From assembly GCF_007655135.1 (NCBI RefSeq), contig NC_045130.1, forward strand, positions 26,718,605 to 26,782,604: a DNA stretch of 64,000 nucleotides. The letters are read 5' to 3'. The translations under genes were made by a program, and so were the position numbers. This DNA is from Punica granatum. Taxonomy: Eukaryota > Streptophyta > Magnoliopsida > Myrtales > Lythraceae. The notes below the pieces were generated by a model. It ran no database searches. It worked only from the letters and a program-made list of their open reading frames with translations, and was not told where the DNA came from. The first letter of the stretch is position 1. Each line of letters opens with the position of its first letter. Below, one piece after another: positions 1,960 to 61,050 of the stretch.

Positions 1960-3500
1960 TGTGATAACTCTATGAAAATAGAGTTATGGGACATTTTTAT
2001 GGGCATAATTGTGGCTATTATATCGAGTTTAGATTTGTTTCAATGGTTTTAGTTTAATTTTCATTCATATCCATTTTGATAGGTTTTAGTATTTTTTATT
2101 AGTTTTTAATCATTTTAATCGATTTTAAATCATTTAGTGGATTGATCATGACAGCCTCTTAATTCCTGGATATTTTGATCGGGTTCAACTTGATGAAATT
2201 GGCGCAAATTGCTTATGGTTAGAAAGTTTATTGAGTTGGGATTGCAAAGGTTCAAGTGGTTCGTGATTTGGAATTCGGACAAGGAAGATATGAGCTGAAG
2301 AATTTCGAGATGCAGTGTCGACTTATAGAGCTGTCACAGTTGCATCCGCGAGAATTGGAGGTCGTGACCATTGCTGATCTGTTAACACGGCCGACGTCTG
2401 TTTACTTCGAGCTTTTACGTGGGTTCCGAGCATGTTTAGAGAGGGAATTTAAGAGGGAGTTATTTTTATTTTCTTGATGACAATACTCATGAAATATAGA
2501 AGATTTTCTTTTATCTTAGTGATAGAGAATAGGAAATTTAATTTATAAAACAATATCTCTTTGCTTGGAGAGAGACTATCGGGATTCTAGGGTTCTATCA
2601 TTCACGTCTTTTAAGGGTCTGGAGAGGCCGAGCGTTCAGAATTTATTCGCTAGCCGACTTCGGCGACCAAGTTTGCGGAGCAGATCTAGATTGCAACCGC
2701 GACTCGAGTTAGAGAACCGACTCTACAGTATCTTCCTCGTTTGCAGCTATGTTTAAATTTTCTTCTTGTGGATCGATGTTGACTCTTTTGATCATGAGTT
2801 AAAACTCTTTTTTTTTTTAGGGTTATATGGAACCTAGTGTTTTTATATAGAATTGTGAATTATCTTTTGTATATCTATTGAATTCGATTGAATTGCTTGT
2901 CCTATATTTTTCTTAATGTGATTAATTTCTTGATCACCAATTAATTTGATTAGGAAATCTAGATGAGCTCGGGTGATGATTCTAGGTTAAGCCATGGACA
3001 GGATAGCCTAAGTATATTTTGAGTTGGAAGACCGACTAGTGTGAGGGATAAGAATATATCCAAAAGCCTTAGGTAGCCCACTATGATAGATAATTAATGT
3101 GTTTCTGCTTATTAATTGCCTAGAAATAGAGTAGTTAATTCGATACAGGAAATACATTTCTGTGACACTTGGAAGAGGTGTAGAAAAATTATAAAACTCT
3201 AAGTAAGTAATTCAAGAATTCAATAAAATAGAGAGAATGAGCACCGAAGGAAATTGAGAGTCCATATTCATCTCTATTTATTTTTACTCGTAGTTAATCT
3301 GTTGCTTAAGTTTAGTTTAGTTTTTTTTAGCTTTGTCTAATCGACTTTCTAAAAAAACTGATCGTCTGGATAAAAATTATTCGTGAAGGTTTTGGTATTT
3401 AGTGGGATCTAAATCAGTTTTTGTAGGACAATACTCTTATTTACTTTATATTACTTGTTCGATAACGTGCACTTGTGTTGATTTGAATTTTATCGCAACA
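1960..3500 (+). repeat. Athila-like LTR (copy A), 5' LTR position
   Basis: This 1,541-base block begins TGTGATAACTC and ends TTATCGCAACA, so it has TG...CA ends. It is preceded by a purine-rich run and followed by a decayed primer-binding site and gag remnant, which marks it as the 5' LTR. The same sequence recurs twice more, at about 29441-31165 and 31380-32949; shared words include TTGCTTATGG and ATAGAGTAGTTAATTCGATA-like text near the 3' part. LTRs of about 1.5 kb with this kind of boundary fit the Athila branch of Ty3/gypsy. Short reading frames inside it are not genes. Confidence 0.8.
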
Positions 3501-3535
3501 AGTTTTTAGTGCCATTATCAGAGATTGTTTCTAGG
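3501..3535 (+). promoter_or_regulatory. Decayed primer-binding region after LTR A
   Basis: Immediately after the LTR comes AGTTTTTAGTGCCATTATCA. Intact plant Ty3/gypsy elements of the Athila type carry at this point a G/C-rich primer site of the TGGCGCCGTTGCCGGGG kind. The window copy differs from it mainly by G-to-A and C-to-T changes, as expected from decay of methylated CpG. Confidence 0.6.
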
Positions 3536-29440: not shown

Positions 29441-31165
29441 TTAACTCTATAAAAATAGAGTTATTCGATACATTTTACGGGTTTATTTAGAGTTAGTTTC
29501 TTGAGTTTAGAATAGTTTCAGTAAGGTTTTAATTTAATTTTCATATTTGCACTTTTCTTAGATTTTTGTTAATACTTGCACGGATTGGTTGTCGAAGAGG
29601 ACGATTGATCTTCCCTTGGGGACGCATGTTCTTCATTCAGCTCCTAACGATATGCTCTCACTGCTGTTAGGCGATATTGCTAGGGCCGTCTTACTCCGTT
29701 TCGTTTCTATTTGAGTTTTTTATATTCGGGCTCTGCCCCCTAATTTACCTAAAAAAAAGTAGATTTTTGTTTGTTTTTAGGGTTTTCCAAGTAATATCAT
29801 AGATCGATGTTTGCAGCCTCTAAGTTCTCGGTTTTTTTGGACAGATTAAACTTGATGACTTTGGTGCAAGTTGCTTATGGCTAGAAAGATATCAAGTTGG
29901 GATTGCGATGGTTTAATCGGTTCGTGATTTGGAGTTTGGACGAGGAAGATACGACCCAAAGAAGTTAGAGGTGTGATGTAGTTTTACAAAGGAGACATGG
30001 TCGCAGCCGCAAGATTGGGAGATCGTTACCGTATGAGATCAGTTCACTCAACCGACTTCTACCCTTGCCAAGATTTAGCGAGGATCCCAAGCATATTTAC
30101 ACAGGGAAATTTTTAGATAGATATTCAGACTTTTTAGTGATCATATTCTATAGATTTATGAAGATTCATAAAAGTTTGAATAGGAAACTGGATCTTATTG
30201 CTTGGGGAGAGATTTTCAGGATTCTTCAGCGGTCTTTCAGGTCTGTTTTAGGGGGCTCAAGAGGTTCAATGTTGAGAGCAGTCACATAGGAGAGAAGACC
30301 TTGGAGACCAAGTTCGAGGAGGAGATCATGATTGCGACGACGATGGCTTGAGTTGGAAGACCAGCTACCTCTTTTTTTCTCATTTTTCTTTGGATTCTTG
30401 AGACTCTGATCATGTTTCTTTCTTATGTTAGAATGATGACTCTTACAATCATGAGTTAAACTCATTTTTCTAGGGTTTCAATGGAATCTTGTATTTTTAT
30501 ATAGATTTGCAAACTCTTCTCTACAATTGTTGATTTCAATTGAATTACTTATCTTGTCCTGATCTTAATGTCGTCAATTGCTTGATCACCTATTGATTAG
30601 ATTTGGAAATTTAGATGAACTTGGGAAAGGAATTCTAGATTAACCATGGATAAGATAGCCTAGTTTAGTTTGAGTTGGAAAACCGACTAATCCATGTGAG
30701 GGATAGAAATATACCCGATTACCTTAGGTGGCCAATTAGGATTGGTAATTAATAGATTTTCGCTTATTAATTGCCTAGGAATAGAGTGATTAATTCGATA
30801 TAGGAAATACATTTCTATAGCACATGGAAGAGGCGTAGGAAGATTATAGAAACCTTGATAAGTAATTCAATAATTTAATAGCATAGAGAGAGTGATCGAG
30901 TTTATATAAGGTAATCTGGGAAATTGATAGTCCTAGATTAGTCCTCATTGATTTTTTATCGTGTTTATTTTTTGCTCTAGTTTACTTTGCCATTTTATTT
31001 TAATTCATTCTTCGAAATTGTTTGTCTGGATAAAAACTAATTCTGTTGGCTTTTCTAGTACTTAGTGGGGTCAATGTCAATCTCTGTGGGGACAATACTC
31101 TTACTCTCATATATTACTTGAAACGAAGCGTACACTTGCTTGCATTTCTTGATTTTATCACAACA
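29441..31165 (+). repeat. Athila-like LTR, copy B (5' LTR of a deleted element)
   Basis: The sequence matches LTR A over its length (TTAACTCTATAAAAATAGAG at the start, TTTTATCACAACA at the end). It carries a 189-base LINE insertion at 29571-29759, which explains its greater length. Only about 0.2 kb separates it from LTR C. Confidence 0.75.
29571..29759 (+). mobile_element. 5'-truncated LINE (L1-type) insertion in LTR B
   Basis: The insert encodes the end of an L1-type RNase H region (ADWLSK-like start in the text 'DWLSKRTIDLPLGTHVLHS') and the 3' untranslated part, and ends in A8. A perfect 12-base target duplication, TAGATTTTTGTT, flanks it at 29559-29570 and 29760-29771. LTRs A and C lack the insert. 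Confidence 0.85.
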
Positions 31166-31379
31166 AGTTTATATTGTAATGCATTGCTTATCAATCATGA
31201 GATACAATGAAAGGAATGAGCTCATTAAGTCCGGTGTAGTCACTCTTGAGAACTTTAAGGGGATCATTCACATTTGATTGATTTTGGTCTTGATTGAAGT
31301 CTTTGTTGTTTGCTTTTATTTTGATTTGTTTTTCTTATATATTTTTGCTTGAAGACTAGCAAATCTTAAGGTTTTGGGG
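31166..31379 (+). other. Residual Athila internal region and polypurine tract
   Basis: Only about 0.2 kb remains between the LTRs. It ends GAAGACTAGCAAATCTTAAG then GTTTTGGGG directly before the TG of LTR C, which is the polypurine tract position. Gag and pol are wholly deleted, so this copy is immobile on its own. Confidence 0.7.
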
Positions 31380-32949
31380 TGTGTTAACTCTATGAAAATA
31401 GAATTATTCGGTACATTTTATGAGTTTATTTGGAATTTATTTCCCGAGTTTAGGTTAGTTTTAGTAATTTTAGTTTAATTTTCATTTATTTGCATTTTGG
31501 TAAGATTTTAGAGGCTTAAGTAGATTTTGATTTGTTTTCATGCGTTTTTCGAGTTAGTTCATAGATCCATATTTGCAGCCTCTAAGTTCTCAGTATTTTT
31601 GGATAGGTTAAACTTGATGACTTTGGTGCAAATTGCTTATGGTTGGAAAACTTATCGAGTTGGAATCGTGATGGTTCAAGCAGTTTGTGATTTGAAGCTT
31701 AGACGAGGAAGATGCGACCTAAAGAAGTTTGAGGTGCAGTGTAGTTTTACAGAGAAGACACGGTCGCAGCTGCGAGATTTGGAGGTCGTGACCGTCTGTG
31801 ATCAGTTCACTCGATCAGCTTCTATCTTTTCTGAGATTTAGCATGGGTCCCAAGCATGTTTAGAGGGGAAAATTATTAGATAGATATTCAGACTTATTAG
31901 TGATAAGATGTAAGAAGATATGTCTTGATTTTCAGGATATAAACTTTCAAGTTTGAGTCGGAAACTAGATCTTATTGCTTGGGAGAGATTTTTGGGATTT
32001 TTCGATGGTCTTTCACGTCTGTTTTAGGGGATTGAAGAGGCTGAACATTGAGAACATTCATATAGGAGAGAACTTGACCTTAGAAACCAAGTTTGAGGAG
32101 GAGATCAAGATTGCAACAATGGTGGCGCTAGTTGGAAGACTAGCTACGTCTTTCTTTCTCATTTTTCATTCTATTCTTGAGACTATGATGATGTCTCTTT
32201 TTTATGTTGGGATGTTGACTCTTGCCATCACGAGGTAAACCCATTTTTCTAGGGCTTCAATGGAATTTAGTATTTTTATATAGATTTGCGAATTCTCTTT
32301 ATCTATGATTATTGATTTCAATTGAATTGCTTTAACTTGTCTTGATCTTAATGTTGTCAATTGCTTTATCACCAATTGAAAAGATTCGAAAATTTAGATG
32401 AACTTGAGAAAGGAATTCTATATTAAGCGATGGACAAGATACGCCAAGTTTAGTTTGAATTGAAAAACCGACTAATTCATGTGAAGGATATGAATATACT
32501 CGAATGCCTTAGATAACCAAATAGGGTTGATTATTAATAGGTTCCTGCTTATTAATTGTCTAGGAATAGTGAGGTTAATTTGATAGAGGGAATAAGTTTA
32601 TATGAAACTCGGAAGAGGCATAAGAAGATTATAAAACCCTTAGCGAGTAATTTAGGAATTAGATAGCATAGAGAGACATTGATCGAGTCTATATAAAGTA
32701 CTAGAGGAAATTGATAGTCCTACTTTCATCCTCATTGATTTCTAATCGTGTTTATTTCATACTCTTGTTTAGTTTGCGATTTTATTTTAATTCACTCTTA
32801 AAAATTGATTGTCATGATAAAAGCTAATTGTGATGGTTTTGGTACTTGGAGGGGTCCAAATCAGTTTTTTGTGGATGATACTCTTATTCTCATAATTGCT
32901 TGAAGCAAAACGTACACTTGCATGCATCTCTCTGATTTTTTCGCAACCA
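31380..32949 (+). repeat. Athila-like LTR, copy C (3' LTR of a deleted element)
   Basis: It begins TGTGTTAACTCTATGAAAAT behind the polypurine tract and ends near TTTTTTCGCAACCA at 32949. It aligns with LTRs A and B throughout. The reading frames of 87-104 codons inside it are LTR sequence and not genes. Confidence 0.75.
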
Positions 32950-32984
32950 ATGCCGCTTAAATAATCCAATATGCAGACCTAGGA

Positions 32985-33245
32985 AAAAAAGTTATAAGTA
33001 CACAAAGTTAACACAAACATACAAGGCCAAAATCTTTCTCGTTGTGAATTATTTTACTCATGCTACATTAATTTCATCAATTAGAAATCATTTGATAATG
33101 GATGAGAGACGAGGAAAATGGAAGATTCACAAGAAAATAAATTTCGACTCACTTCGATCGACTCTAGGTCTTTTCATATTTAATTTCTATCTATTCGTCT
33201 TAATCTCTCTTCCTTTTTATGACTTTTAAATTTGATATTATATGG
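32985..33245 (+). repeat. Right copy of the ~0.3-kb direct repeat flanking the Athila remnant
   Basis: Same order of words as at 29125-29440, closing with TTTTAAATTTGATATTATATG in both. The bases after it (AATATGCACATCTAGGAAAA) resemble those before it (AATATGCAGACCTAGGAAAA at about 32967), so this side also shows a short tandem overlap. Confidence 0.7.
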
Positions 33246-38171: not shown

Positions 38172-38579
38172 TGTTTACACTAGATTTCCGCATGCCGCGT
38201 TAATCATGGGAATTGGAGAAAATTAACTAAGATTTAGGACCAATTGAGCTTTGTATTGACATGAGTTGGCTCGGATACGTGATAAGGACGATCCGGATGA
38301 GAGGTTTGATGGGCTCAGGCTTGTAAAGACCCAAGGAAAGAGGAGACGCCCGCAAAGGACGTCTTCAGGCCGGCCCGCCAGAGAGAAGCGGCGACATCCA
38401 GCTTAGGGCTGCCGCATCTAGGGATTGGTGGCCTTAAAAACGAAAAGTGTGGGAAAATCTTTGCATCCAAGGAAATTGCAAGCTAGAGTAATCTACAAGA
38501 AGGCAATGACGTATTAAGAAGGGCATTACCATTTTTTTTCTTTATTTCATTGCTCATTTGAAGCATAGTTAATAAGGAA
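38172..38579. repeat. Long direct repeat, left copy (LTR-like)
   Basis: Starts TGTTTACACTAGATTTCC and matches 42579-42982 along its full 408 bases with scattered substitutions (for example GATGAGAGGTTTGATGGGCT in both). The abrupt shared start at TG in both copies suggests an LTR boundary. It is truncated on the right at TTAATAAGGAA. Confidence 0.75.
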
Positions 38580-42578: not shown

Positions 42579-43440
42579 TGTTTACACTAGATTTCCGTAT
42601 GCCGCGTTTATCATGGGAGCTGGAGAAAACTAACTAAGATTTAGGACCAATTGAGCTTTATATTTACGTGAGTTGGCCCGGATACGTGACAAGGACAATC
42701 CAGATGAGAGGTTTGATGGGCTCGGGCTTGTAAAGACCCAAGGAAAGAGGAGAGGCTCGCGAAGGACATCTTTAGGTCGGCCTAGCCCGAGAGAAGCGTC
42801 GACATCCAGCTTAGGTCTGCTGCATCTAGGGATTGGTGGCCTAAAATACGGAAAGTGTGGGGAAAATCTTTACATCCAAAGAAATTGCAAAATAAAGTAA
42901 TCTACATGAAGGCAATGACGTATTAGGAAGGACATTACCATTTTTTTATTTCATTGCTCGTTTGAAGCATGGTTAATAAGGAACTACATTTCTTGGTTCC
43001 CTTATCTTAATTTTGCCCCATTTTGTAATAAGATTTAGCCCTAGTTGATTGTTAGCTATCCTAGGCTCGGTTATATAAGTTAGAAGTGTGGATCATTATA
43101 GCTTCTTCGACAACACAACATTCGTACCCCCTTATTTCATCTACATTTCGGTATTTTTCATTCCCTTGCACTTTACTTTATGTTTTACATTTCGTTCTTC
43201 ACTTCCAACACTTACATATCGCACTTAGGACGTTAGAACCCATCGAGTCTCTCGGTTTATGCATCCACCTCTGTTTAAGCTTCCGAGTGAGGATTGATTT
43301 CCATCTGCGGCTTGGCTTCCAGGCCTTGACGTGTGTTTCTCATGAATCCATACCACTTGAATCTTTCGGGATTCGTAGTAGTTAGACCTATTAAATTGGC
43401 TTTAGGGCCAATTTCATTTTTTTGGGCTTAAACTACGCGC
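42579..43440 (+). repeat. Long direct repeat, right copy, with LTR-like promoter
   Basis: The first 404 bases match 38172-38579. It then continues with TATATAAGTTAGAAGTGTGG (a TATA box followed by a transcribed-leader-like stretch) to about 43440. The start TG and the TATA box suggest an LTR read on the plus strand, although the coding remnants between the two copies run on the minus strand. The orientation is therefore unsettled. Confidence 0.55.
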
Positions 43441-58612: not shown

Positions 58613-58617
58613 GGATT

Positions 58618-59023
58618 TGACGCAGCAAAATTAAAGAACAATTGTAATCTATTAATTCGCGCAAGAATGCCAGAAAACAATCTTCTGTAACCTGTTGATT
58701 CTATGAATACCAGTTATAGGCATCAAATTCGAATCAAATCCAAGAATTGGCAAAGAGCACGAAAACTCCAAATTTTATTAATTGATCAAAAGACAAAACG
58801 TCCAACCCTAGGATTTTATAAAGCTTAAATTGGAATTAAAACGCCTAATTACACGAAAGACATAAACTTTTTCTAAAATTGTAAAAATACCCAAATAACA
58901 TAAAAATGTCCGTTTGAGGTCCTAAAATTTCTCATTTGGCTCCGGATGCCGTTTCCCTCGAGACATGGTCGTCAGAACCTGTTTTTCTCGAGATACCGAT
59001 TTGCCACGTCTTCTGCCGCATCA
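58618..59023 (-). repeat. 3' LTR of the gene-capturing element
   Basis: On the minus strand it starts TGATGCGGCAGAAGACGTGG and ends TTTGCTGCGTCA (406 bases, TG…CA). It matches 60265-60671 over its full length with scattered substitutions, so the insertion is not brand new. Confidence 0.85.
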
Positions 59024-59033
59024 TTCTCCCCTG
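59024..59033 (-). promoter_or_regulatory. Polypurine tract of the gene-capturing element
   Basis: On the minus strand CAGGGGAGAA stands directly before the TG of the 3' LTR, the position where second-strand synthesis is primed. Confidence 0.7.
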
Positions 59034-59096
59034 GGTTGAGAGAATTGGCCCTAGGAGTCCAGAGATAAAATTACGTCCAAGAGATAAAATTGCGTG

Positions 59097-59679
59097 CAGT
59101 TGTCCATTGAGGTACCCATCATAGACATAAACTCCTGAAGCCCCGATCTGTTTCCGTTCTTTGGCGGATACAGGATTGTGGTCCCTTGACATCTCAATTG
59201 CTTTCCCTCGGCGAAATAAGACTCCTCTACAATCTCCAGCATTAGCCACCACTAGTAATCTCCCCATGACTGTTGCTACCAATGTTGTGGTTCCAAAAGC
59301 GAAGGCTACATCTAATGAGCATGCTTCGGCAGAGGCGGCATCAGTCTGTAAGAAGGCAGAAGAAATGACATTCTTGATCTCATGAGGAAAGTCTTTGTCT
59401 TCAAGAATGATCCTCAGCAAGTGATAGCAGACAAAATCAGTAGCATGCTTTCCCCATGCCCATCGAAAACCCCATAGAATTAGGCCCACCGCTTAGATTC
59501 TCGAATCCATAATCATGTGCAAAATTATCCACACCAACATACACATCTTCCATACTTGACCGAAAACTGATGTAAACCCATGCTCTATAACGAATGATTG
59601 GAAAAAATCCTGACTCAAAATACTATGCCGCAGTGATTGGTTTGATAGAGACATCTGACATCATCATCCTCATCTGTTG
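59097..59679 (-). pseudogene. Captured PP2C-type protein phosphatase fragment
   Basis: Residues such as FRSSMEDVYVGVDNFAHDYG, GKHATDFVCYHLLRIILEDK, LVVANAGDCRGVLFRRGKAI, EMSRDHNPVSAKE and GYLNGQL follow the plant PP2C order (start of the catalytic domain through the middle). In this family the motif VFDGHGG supplies metal-binding Asp; here a one-base loss near 59451-59455 shifts the frame inside it. The copy starts around the residues QQMRMMMSD (59679) and stops after GYLNGQL (59097), so the C-terminal third of the domain is missing. The retained segment spans regions that in plant PP2C genes are usually split by introns, yet here it is continuous, which points to capture from spliced RNA. 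It is flanked directly by the splicing-factor fragment upstream and element DNA downstream. It cannot be active. Confidence 0.85.
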
Positions 59680-59916
59680 ATTCGAGGCACAATACTTCTC
59701 AATTTCCTGCTTCAGCCTTGTCTCCCTCCTATCTTTTCTTCGTGAGTCCATCCTCTTGTTGATGGCCTCCCAGACCGCATCAGCCTCCTTGTCGTCCTCA
59801 TCATACTCAGCAAAAGCAAAGAGACCCACATCATTCCCCTCAAATTCATCGAATTTCCGGTTCTCGTCATAACCCTTGTCATCTACCTCATCATCCTCCT
59901 CTTCCTCATCGAACTC
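59680..59916 (-). pseudogene. Captured STABILIZED1 / Prp6-like splicing factor fragment
   Basis: The residues DDKGYDENRKFDEFEGNDVG, LFAFAEYDEDDKEADAVWEA and MDSRRKDRRETRLKQEIEKY are the N-terminal PRP1 domain of the plant U5 snRNP factor STABILIZED1 (Prp6-like), a protein of roughly 1,000 residues. Only about 79 residues are retained; the HAT/TPR repeats are absent. The run is open and in frame with the gag start of the element; it passes without a break into the PP2C piece at 59679. The acidic run before it (59916-59985) may belong to the captured gene or to gag. The identification is from memory of the family motif, and is strong because the motif is highly conserved. Confidence 0.85.
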
Positions 59917-60072
59917 GGGCTCTCTATTACCTCCCGCTACAAAAATTGCGTCATCAGACGGATTCTCTTTGGAAAACAAAGTTGCGTTCCCTTCAAAATA
60001 GGAATCATACTCGACATCCTCCAAGCCTGCAATCGGATTAAGGACTCAGCCGCGCCTCGGGTCGACCTCCTG

Positions 60073-60228
60073 TCAGGCCTCCATCAACACCCCCATCCTC
60101 TCGGTTAGGCGATCCAGAACCACGTCCAGCCTACGCACCAGCCAGGTATCAATAATCTGCTCGATCCTCCGATACAGTTTGTCCTCCTCCGCAACCCGAC
60201 GTTGATTAGCCGTTCTTCGAGGCGGCAT
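60073..60228 (-). CDS. Short gag start of the gene-capturing element (51 aa)
   Basis: The ATG at 60228 lies 23 bases after the primer site. The product MPPRRTANQRRVAEEDKLYR continues with a coiled-coil-like segment and stops at TGA 60075-60073. MPPRR starts are typical of Ty3/gypsy gag proteins in plants. The same frame continues after the stop (QEVDPRRG, a second TGA, LNPIAGLEDVEYDS) into the splicing-factor piece. Both stops can be derived from CGA arginine codons by one C-to-T change. There is no capsid domain and no zinc knuckle. Confidence 0.6.
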   Translation of the reverse strand: MPPRRTANQRRVAEEDKLYRRIEQIIDTWLVRRLDVVLDRLTERMGVLMEA

Positions 60229-60250
60229 CGCTGATCAAAGAGCGAACGCG

Positions 60251-60262
60251 GCTCCAATACCA
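60251..60262 (-). promoter_or_regulatory. Primer-binding site (tRNA-Met type) of the gene-capturing element
   Basis: On the minus strand TGGTATTGGAGC stands two bases after the 5' LTR. It matches TGGTATCAGAGC, the initiator-tRNA-Met site of many plant elements, at 10 of 12 positions. Confidence 0.75.
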
Positions 60263-60264
60263 AC

Positions 60265-60966
60265 TGACATAGCAAAACTAAAGAACAATTGTAATATGTT
60301 AATTCGCGCACGAATACCAAAAAATAATCTTCTATAACATGTTGATTCTACGAATACCAAGGAATAGGCATCAAATTCGAATCAAATCCGAGAATGGGCA
60401 ATGAGCACGAAAACTCCAATTTTTATTAATTAATCAAAAGACAAAACGTCCAACCTTAGGGTTTTACAAAGCTTAAATAGGAATTAAAACACATAAATTA
60501 CACAAAAGACATAAACTTTTTTTAAAATTATAAAAATACCCAAATAACATAAAAATATCTGTTTGAGGCCCTAAAATTTTCCGTTTGGCTTTGGAGGCCG
60601 TTTCCCTCGAGACAGGTCATCAGAACCTGTTTTTCTCGAGATACCGATTTGCCACGTCTTCTGCCGCATCATTGAATCGAATCCGAGAATGGGCGAAAGA
60701 GCACGAAAGCTCCAATTTGTATTAATTGATCAAAAGATAAAACGTCCAACCCTAGGGTTTTACAAAGCTTAAATAGGAATTAGAACGCCTAAATTACACG
60801 AAAGACATAACTTTTCCTAAAATTGTAAAAATACCCAAATAACATAAAAATATCTGTTTGAGGCTCTAAAATTTCCCGTTTGGCTCCAGAGGTCGTTTCC
60901 CTCGAGACAGGTCGTCAGAACCTGTTTTTCTCGAGATACCGATTTGCCACGTCTTATGTCGCATCA
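60265..60966 (-). repeat. 5' LTR of the gene-capturing element with a partial tandem duplication
   Basis: 60265-60671 is a complete LTR that pairs with the 3' LTR. Directly outside it, 60674-60966 repeats the outer 293 bases (compare 60379-60671) and then meets the target duplication GGATT. The 5' LTR is thus about one and three-quarter units long (702 bases against 406 at the 3' end). Confidence 0.8.
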
Positions 60967-60987
60967 GGATTTCTAGGAAGCATGTGA

Positions 60988-61050
60988 TTTTTTTTTTTTT
61001 TTTTTGGGGGGGGGGGGGGGGAGGGGGGGGTGTTGGGGTGAGGGTGGGGG
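60988..61050. repeat. Homopolymer tract T18-G16 inside copia gag
   Basis: A run of 18 T (60988-61005) goes directly into 16 G (61006-61021), A, 8 G and further G-rich text. It starts 17 bases from the target duplication of the LTR insertion. Runs of this length suit a G-quadruplex but also sequencing or assembly error. Confidence 0.8.

Follow-up and report, generated by a model that had tools for sequence, protein, structure and literature searches.

Plant long terminal repeat (LTR) retrotransposons with pieces of host genes have been described repeatedly, as far as the available portions of the papers cited here go. The maize element Bs1 is a single element with three transduced host genes, represented by exons only (PMC13317346, PMC4717578). 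Gene-carrying terminal-repeat retrotransposons in miniature (TRIMs), e.g. GmaRetroS15 of soybean, measure 1172-1449 bp and come from seven subfamilies; two of these TRIMs contain exons from more than two genes (PMC4717578). A positional survey placed 672 host genes of rice and 1343 of sorghum inside LTR elements (PMC3726574), and for pomegranate a recent expansion of large retrotransposon derivatives (LARDs) is known, the available text reporting no gene capture (PMC5999313). The presence of several host genes in one LTR element is already established by Bs1 and GmaRetroS15. Acquisition of such genes, however, has so far mostly been inferred from isolated cases. Here we describe a 2349-bp LTR element of pomegranate (Punica granatum) on the minus strand at positions 58618-60966 of a 64,000-nt stretch of contig NC_045130.1 (26,718,605 to 26,782,604; the window). 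An earlier note on this DNA had recognized a fragment of the splicing factor STA1 (Prp6 type) next to a fragment of a PP2C phosphatase, took Bs1 as a one-gene capture and considered two captures unusual. The latter two views do not agree with the three genes of Bs1 and the multi-gene TRIMs mentioned above, and the element is no singleton since it belongs to a large family in its own genome. The unusual feature is the combination of one 5' module with many different host genes, and it lies outside the window.

We consider it probable (about 80%) that the element is a decayed, non-autonomous copy of Ty3/gypsy type which acquired its cargo by template switching, and that the cargo cassette was swapped between LTR lineages and amplified. 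The hallmarks of an LTR retrotransposon are present as the earlier note had described them, namely paired LTRs with TG..CA ends, the target site duplication GGATT on both sides, a primer binding site and a polypurine tract. The primer site is presumably of the tRNA-Met type, whose consensus it matches imperfectly. The two-LTR structure has to be amended, since besides the pair a third, partial LTR copy was found. Kimura two-parameter distances (K2P) are 0.101 between the full LTRs and 0.085 from the partial copy to each of them. As all three pieces thus differ by 8-10%, the partial copy probably inserted along with the remainder of the element. The GGATT duplication fits the outer edge only (60966 side), not the inner LTR edge.

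Both host fragments lie in sense orientation in place of pol, as had been claimed. The STA1 fragment matches PF06424 (E = 5e-19) and the PP2C fragment PF00481 (E = 1.4e-18), both well above chance, and both align to parent genes. A gag N-terminal piece, which the earlier note had not named, separates the primer site from STA1. Of a gag-pol of its own the window copy retains just this gag N-terminus and an acidic linker, and its fusion frame is broken by a stop in the gag piece, a PP2C stop and a PP2C frameshift. No Rfam match was found in the window. Inverted repeat pairs of at least 20 bases, as they would be expected for the termini of a Pack-MULE, were not found either.

The parents of both fragments, which the earlier note had suggested comparing, were located in the genome. 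The STA1 parent is an open frame of 1033 aa at C2:41514924, identical to the window fragment in 217 of 231 nt. Because this parent is one open frame, STA1 cannot indicate whether the captured RNA was spliced. The PP2C parent (L060, C8:7431674-7433098) was matched exon by exon. Its alignment gaps at 372-461 and 683-1026 have GT..AG ends, and all four long copies compared (window copy, L002, L003 and L029) span both gaps with 88.7-94.1% identity. Since two parental introns are absent, the PP2C piece derives from spliced RNA. In the window copy the exon joins are found near 59469-59471 and 59252-59261. At the join to STA1 the PP2C exon is preceded by CAG, the last three parent bases just before this exon; they may belong to an intron or to an alternative exon.

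The whole element yielded at least 107 matches in the pomegranate genome (39 of 977 candidates scored). With the STA1 fragment 109 matches were obtained (all 116 candidates scored), one of them the parent gene, so that the search proposed by the earlier note for copies of the same fusion gave 108 further matches. Some of these are two halves of a single copy. LTR pairs were present in 25 of the 27 copies tested, with an internal region of 0.77-1.43 kb. Complete 5/5 target duplications accompany seven of these 25; the other 18, including the window copy, scored lower in a script that takes the best of shifts up to 12 bases. The window copy received 3/5 because the script started at its inner LTR edge. 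A single duplicated insertion accounts for both L007 and L008. A long PP2C form occurs in L001 (the window copy), L002, L003 and L029 and a form with a medium deletion in L006, L007, L008 and L025. The other loci examined contain a short form, in which GATAATTTT is joined to ATCTC at the repeat TAATTTT. STA1 and PP2C share one frame in all 46 copies scored, 26 of which carry a gag leader of type A (searched with a typed mixture) and 20 one of type B.

The family has also entered the gene catalogue. The public pomegranate protein CRG98_013176 is 100% identical to the open reading frame (ORF) of the window over 74% of this ORF, and the catalogue model P0063 is identical to the window ORF. Pomegranate accounts for 42 of the 62 public protein matches of the STA1 ORF, annotated as 'PRP1 splicing factor' or hypothetical with a PRP1 N-terminal domain, and many of the PRP1-domain proteins that we read start with the gag leader. 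Many of these 42 STA1-type proteins and a few PP2C-like ones (P0063, P0064 and P0094) are thus pieces of retroelements.

Two local arrangements of STA1 elements were also noted. At C4:19964216-19975123 nine units that carry STA1 are repeated in tandem at intervals of about 1326 bp, their open frames measuring 256-276 aa. L025 contains two STA1 elements close together in opposite orientation, plus a third piece of LTR, leader and linker without STA1.

Further cargo was found by surveying elements with leader A, for which the genome contains at least 133 matches (150 of 200 candidates scored). After exclusion of seven places in the tandem array and 37 with weaker matches, 89 of the 133 were compared with 87 of the 109 STA1 matches. 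An STA1 match lies within 900 bp in 38 places and is missing in 51, of which 48 were read; one of the other three is within L025 and two are apparent duplicates by their coordinates. Native gag was present in 20 of the 48 places, an integrase piece in one, named host cargo in 12, MAPKK together with STA1 and PP2C in two (L082 and L100; MAPKK match 2.3e-5 over 25 residues), and cargo without a name in eight (X in L064, L069 and L077; Y in L072, L073, L083, L087 and L094). Two hold STA1 remnants and three are unclear. Among the 12 places with named cargo, five contain an NFRKB-like piece (L078 with a PDB match at 5.5e-7, the other four places clustering with it), two CHD3-type pieces (L090, L098), two GH1 (L065 at 1.6e-66; L105 by eye, first residues only), two the start of GH1 followed by GH3 (L115 at 1.3e-32; L120 by eye) and one ATRX/CHROMATIN REMODELING 20 (L071, named matches at 1.4e-54). 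L080 combines its NFRKB-like piece with one of peroxisomal MFP2 (1.4e-15). Thus, several elements carry two or three host genes.

Four elements with such other cargo have LTR pairs of their own, with identities of 88.8% (Y), 88.7% over partial length (GH1), 88.8% (CHD3) and 81.7% (NFRKB); their LTRs are 69-85% identical to the window LTR. GH1 matches at C4:28160157-28161420 fall into five separate pieces, and those at C4:28179613-28180937 are divided in the same way; in L065 the GH1 piece runs uninterrupted. An NFRKB parent was located at C3:38221054. A possible source of cargo X lies at C2:29811633-29812013, where a 233-aa frame matches residues 66-192 of the L064 query at 83%.

Relatives of the family with gag and pol are present in the genome. 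A search with the LTR was carried out (40 of 1372 candidates scored), and a related pair with a spacing of 5.2 kb was found at C4:17784561-17790632, each LTR being 76% identical to that of the window. Separate pieces of this relative show a leader of type B, weak matches to gag and Ty3 capsid (E 0.005-0.01, below the cut-off) and, in L058, RVT_1 (4.9e-38), RNase H and Integrase_H2C2 in this order, as is characteristic of Ty3/gypsy elements. A second related pair lies at C3:13395184-13400241, where gag is above the cut-off (L059, 3.9e-6). Measured from the leader start, the linker lies at a distance of 971-1038 bp in 11 native loci and of about 240 bp in L064; hence the module has lost about 0.77 kb of gag. 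A reading of the linker as a third captured host gene was rejected, since a search with it (150 of 267 candidates scored) shows it some 1.0 kb behind the leader in the 11 native gag loci and within frames as long as 892 aa. It is thus the element's own. The cargo elements have retained both LTRs, primer site, gag N-terminus, acidic linker, 3' tail and polypurine tract; as far as seen, pol is lost as well as the gag segment. Consequently, the family must depend on autonomous relatives.

Copies with different cargo diverge from one another in one purine-rich stretch. Up to point changes they share GAGTTCGACGAGGAGGAGGAGATTGTGACAGGAGATGGGGTGCCCAAT and separate within it or at its end. The point of divergence is in the GAG repeat for the STA1, NFRKB, ATRX and Y types, behind GTGACAGG for the GH1 and MAPKK types and behind GTGCCCAAT for the CHD3 and X types. 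The gag deletion of L090 and L098 differs from that of the other copies, which argues for independent origins. STA1, PP2C and MAPKK are in frame, as are X (3/3), Y (2/4) and the stretch before NFRKB (3/4). GH1 is in frame in L065 and not in L115, CHD3 in L098 and not in L090, and NFRKB itself in none of three. Pairing at the GAG repeat would by itself preserve the frame for STA1.

From these structures we infer the following route. Spliced host mRNAs would be co-packaged with the element RNA. Reverse transcriptase may then leave the element tail for a host mRNA and return to the element at its (GAG)n linker, and repeated jumps could stack cargos of two and three genes. The same copy-choice recombination may have moved the STA1-PP2C cassette between LTR lineages, with subsequent amplification. 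The common short form is explicable by a jump at the repeat TAATTTT (7 bases).

Divergence was determined for 24 elements, i.e. the 25 with LTR pairs less L031, which was dropped for its length. Within one element the LTRs differ by 0.099 on average. Between elements the differences are 0.245 for the LTR, 0.166 for the linker region, 0.097 for STA1 and 0.105 for the PP2Ca segment; for leader A, among the copies with this type, the difference is 0.179, with 0.108 expected. Change after insertion alone predicts 0.099, and the STA1 cassette stands at 0.097. The cassettes would therefore have been nearly identical at insertion, when the LTRs were already different, and the LTR lineages appear to be older than the STA1-PP2C cassette which they bear. 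An LTR tree pairs the LTRs of the same element as sisters for 19 of the 24 elements. L003, L018 and L021 are unresolved, and those of L007 and L008 group by side, as expected for a duplicated insertion. Well-supported inner branches number 19 of 45 in the LTR tree and 2 of 39 in the STA1-PP2Ca tree (43 copies), with median end branches of 0.052 and 0.045, respectively.

The low divergence of STA1 might instead reflect purifying selection, if the fusion ORF were a functional protein of the element, e.g. a Gag-like helper. The data contain signs of this: among 46 copies the gap openings number 9 in the linker region (881 mismatches) and 10 in PP2Ca (812 mismatches) and none in STA1, the frame between STA1 and linker is kept in all 41 copies scored of these 46 (33 without an intervening stop), copy-to-copy dN and dS are 0.088 and 0.202 (ratio 0.44, 45 distinct copies), and in STA1, linker and leader the second codon position is the least variable. 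The variants of the 45 copies, however, are close to neutral expectation, both private (75 nonsynonymous, 18 synonymous and 3 stops; expected 71.1, 19.4 and 5.5) and shared (61, 36 and 4; expected 63.1, 32.7 and 5.2). Third codon positions differ by 0.114 in STA1 and 0.099 in PP2Ca, little above the 0.099 of post-insertion decay, and the codon-position effect mostly vanishes once sites are split by base composition. We therefore rejected selection on the protein as the main cause of STA1 conservation and regard a functional fusion protein as unlikely; absent indels and low second positions remain as counter-evidence. By these counts the inserts decay neutrally, and the data agree better with a recent passage of the cassette from one LTR lineage to another than with selection on the protein.

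It is improbable, too, that a single old element captured STA1 and PP2C once, that all copies descend from it together with their LTRs, and that the loci with other cargo are unrelated recombination junk. The identical STA1/PP2C join with its TCAA filler in the five copies read and the common frame of the two pieces would agree with a single capture. The LTRs, however, differ far more between copies than the STA1 cassette does, the cassette is found on two different gag leaders, and the same module bears other cargos, in the four tested elements between LTR pairs of their own. Read-through 3' transduction, which the available part of PMC13317346 gives as the mechanism for Bs1, or DNA-level insertion is very improbable as the route of capture compared with switching between packaged RNAs, since the PP2C piece lacks two introns, GH1 runs uninterrupted against a five-way split at two genomic places, and the cargos are enclosed within the element by linker and tail, with several unlinked genes joined in one element.

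Some observations weigh against capture by template switching followed by cassette exchange. Template switching is inferred from structure, no intermediate having been observed. Only for STA1 was the exact join located relative to the parent gene. The NFRKB parent match starts at position 395 of L078 and the ATRX frame at position 313 of L071, i.e. 100-200 nt past the linker, so that something else may lie between the linker and these pieces and their joins are not located. ATRX in L071 is in another frame than the linker, as are L084, L087, L090, L094, L115 and parts of L078 and L102. Parents were located for four of nine named host genes (STA1, PP2C, NFRKB and GH1). The NFRKB stretch crosses no intron, and two of the five GH1 matches contain stops, i.e. 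this place may be damaged or the matches may overrun into introns. Pol was examined in one relative, with leader B, only. Finally, second codon positions of STA1 differ by 0.064 against 0.114 and 0.114 at the other two, so that low cassette divergence could reflect constraint, and the lack of gap openings in STA1 against 878 mismatches is not fully explained.

Features of the window element. Positions refer to the window; LTR ends and motifs are given in the sense of the element.
Feature	Position	Strand	Remarks
Target site duplication GGATT, left	58613..58617	.	5/5 match to 60967-60971
3' LTR, 406 bp, TGATGC...GCGTCA	58618..59023	-	90% identical to 5' LTR
Polypurine tract AGGGGAGAA	59024..59032	-	from sequence; autonomous relative L061 has one in a similar place
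Element's own 3' tail, AATTTTATCTC repeated	59033..59092	-	PP2C capture joins here on the 3' side of the capture
Captured PP2C fragment, exon-exon-exon	59093..59676	-	two parental introns absent; alignment to parent
4-base filler TCAA at STA1/PP2C join	59677..59680	-	also in L002, L028, L029, L034
Captured STA1/Prp6 N-terminal fragment	59681..59911	-	aligned to STA1 gene
Purine-rich acidic linker, DPSDDAFFVAGGDGEPEF-like, element's own	59912..59979	-	taken as gag-pol linker; copies with different cargo separate at or beyond its end
gag N-terminal piece, type A (MPPRRTANQRR..)	59980..60228	-	stop at 60073-60075 in window copy
Primer binding site GTTGGTATTGGAGCC	60250..60264	-	presumably tRNA-Met type
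5' LTR, 407 bp	60265..60671	-	90% identical to 3' LTR
Extra partial LTR copy, 293 bp, U3 side, tandem before 5' LTR	60674..60966	-	91% identical to both LTRs
Target site duplication GGATT, right	60967..60971	.	pairs with left copy

Just outside the element, a long T run is followed by a long G run (60991-61031), a place that may be fragile in the assembly. Elsewhere in the window, an LTR-like direct repeat pair is located at 38172-38579 and 42579-42983 (89% over 410 bp, about 4 kb apart), for which a self-search of the window gave no match to the LTR of the element. Tandemly duplicated segments of about 1.4 kb with 80% identity occupy 29757-33218, and a more distant third copy of them (about 69%) is found at 1960-3511.

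A wider proposal can be put forward only tentatively and may well prove wrong. The purine-rich linker could be a landing site for jumps of reverse transcriptase, and the family a general retro exon-trap which acquires spliced host mRNAs again and again, often in frame with the Gag leader before them, combines two or three in one element, exchanges finished cassettes among LTR lineages and yields chimeras of Gag leader and host protein in bulk. With one module, several findable parents, readable junctions and datable insertions, the rules of such jumps (microhomology, purine tracts, frame and splicing state) become measurable.

TRIMs are defined by LTRs of very small size and by few or no remains of coding sequence, LARDs by a large non-coding internal domain of several kb. 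The window element, with LTRs of 406 and 407 bp and a gag-derived remnant, is not a TRIM in this sense, and the cargo elements with their short internal region are far smaller than LARDs. A family with this many cargos is not described in the available portions of PMC13317346, PMC4717578, PMC3726574, PMC7264820 and PMC5999313, and literature searches for the pomegranate 'PRP1 splicing factor' or for 'gene capture' by a pomegranate retrotransposon found no paper. As far as these sources extend, the family can be compared as follows. Like the LARDs of the same species, its members are non-autonomous LTR derivatives that have expanded (PMC5999313). The survey of rice and sorghum describes neither a shared junction nor a multi-gene cargo family (PMC3726574). 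Pack-MULEs and Pack-CACTA elements also take pieces of many host genes and make chimeras (PMC13317346); in contrast to the LTRs and spliced cargo found here, they are DNA transposons, and Pack-MULEs carry introns (PMC4717578). With gene-carrying TRIMs our family shares small size, exon-only fragments, 5-bp duplications and mostly several copies, and tandem arrays are common in TRIMs (PMC4717578); in contrast, the pomegranate LTRs are about 400-480 bp long and the gag-derived module recurs with many cargos. Like Bs1, the pomegranate element is a plant LTR element with exon-only pieces of several host genes in sense orientation between its LTRs, intron loss being seen for PP2C. Unlike Bs1, it belongs to a multicopy family in which alternative cargos occur on one 5' module and one cassette on two types of leader.

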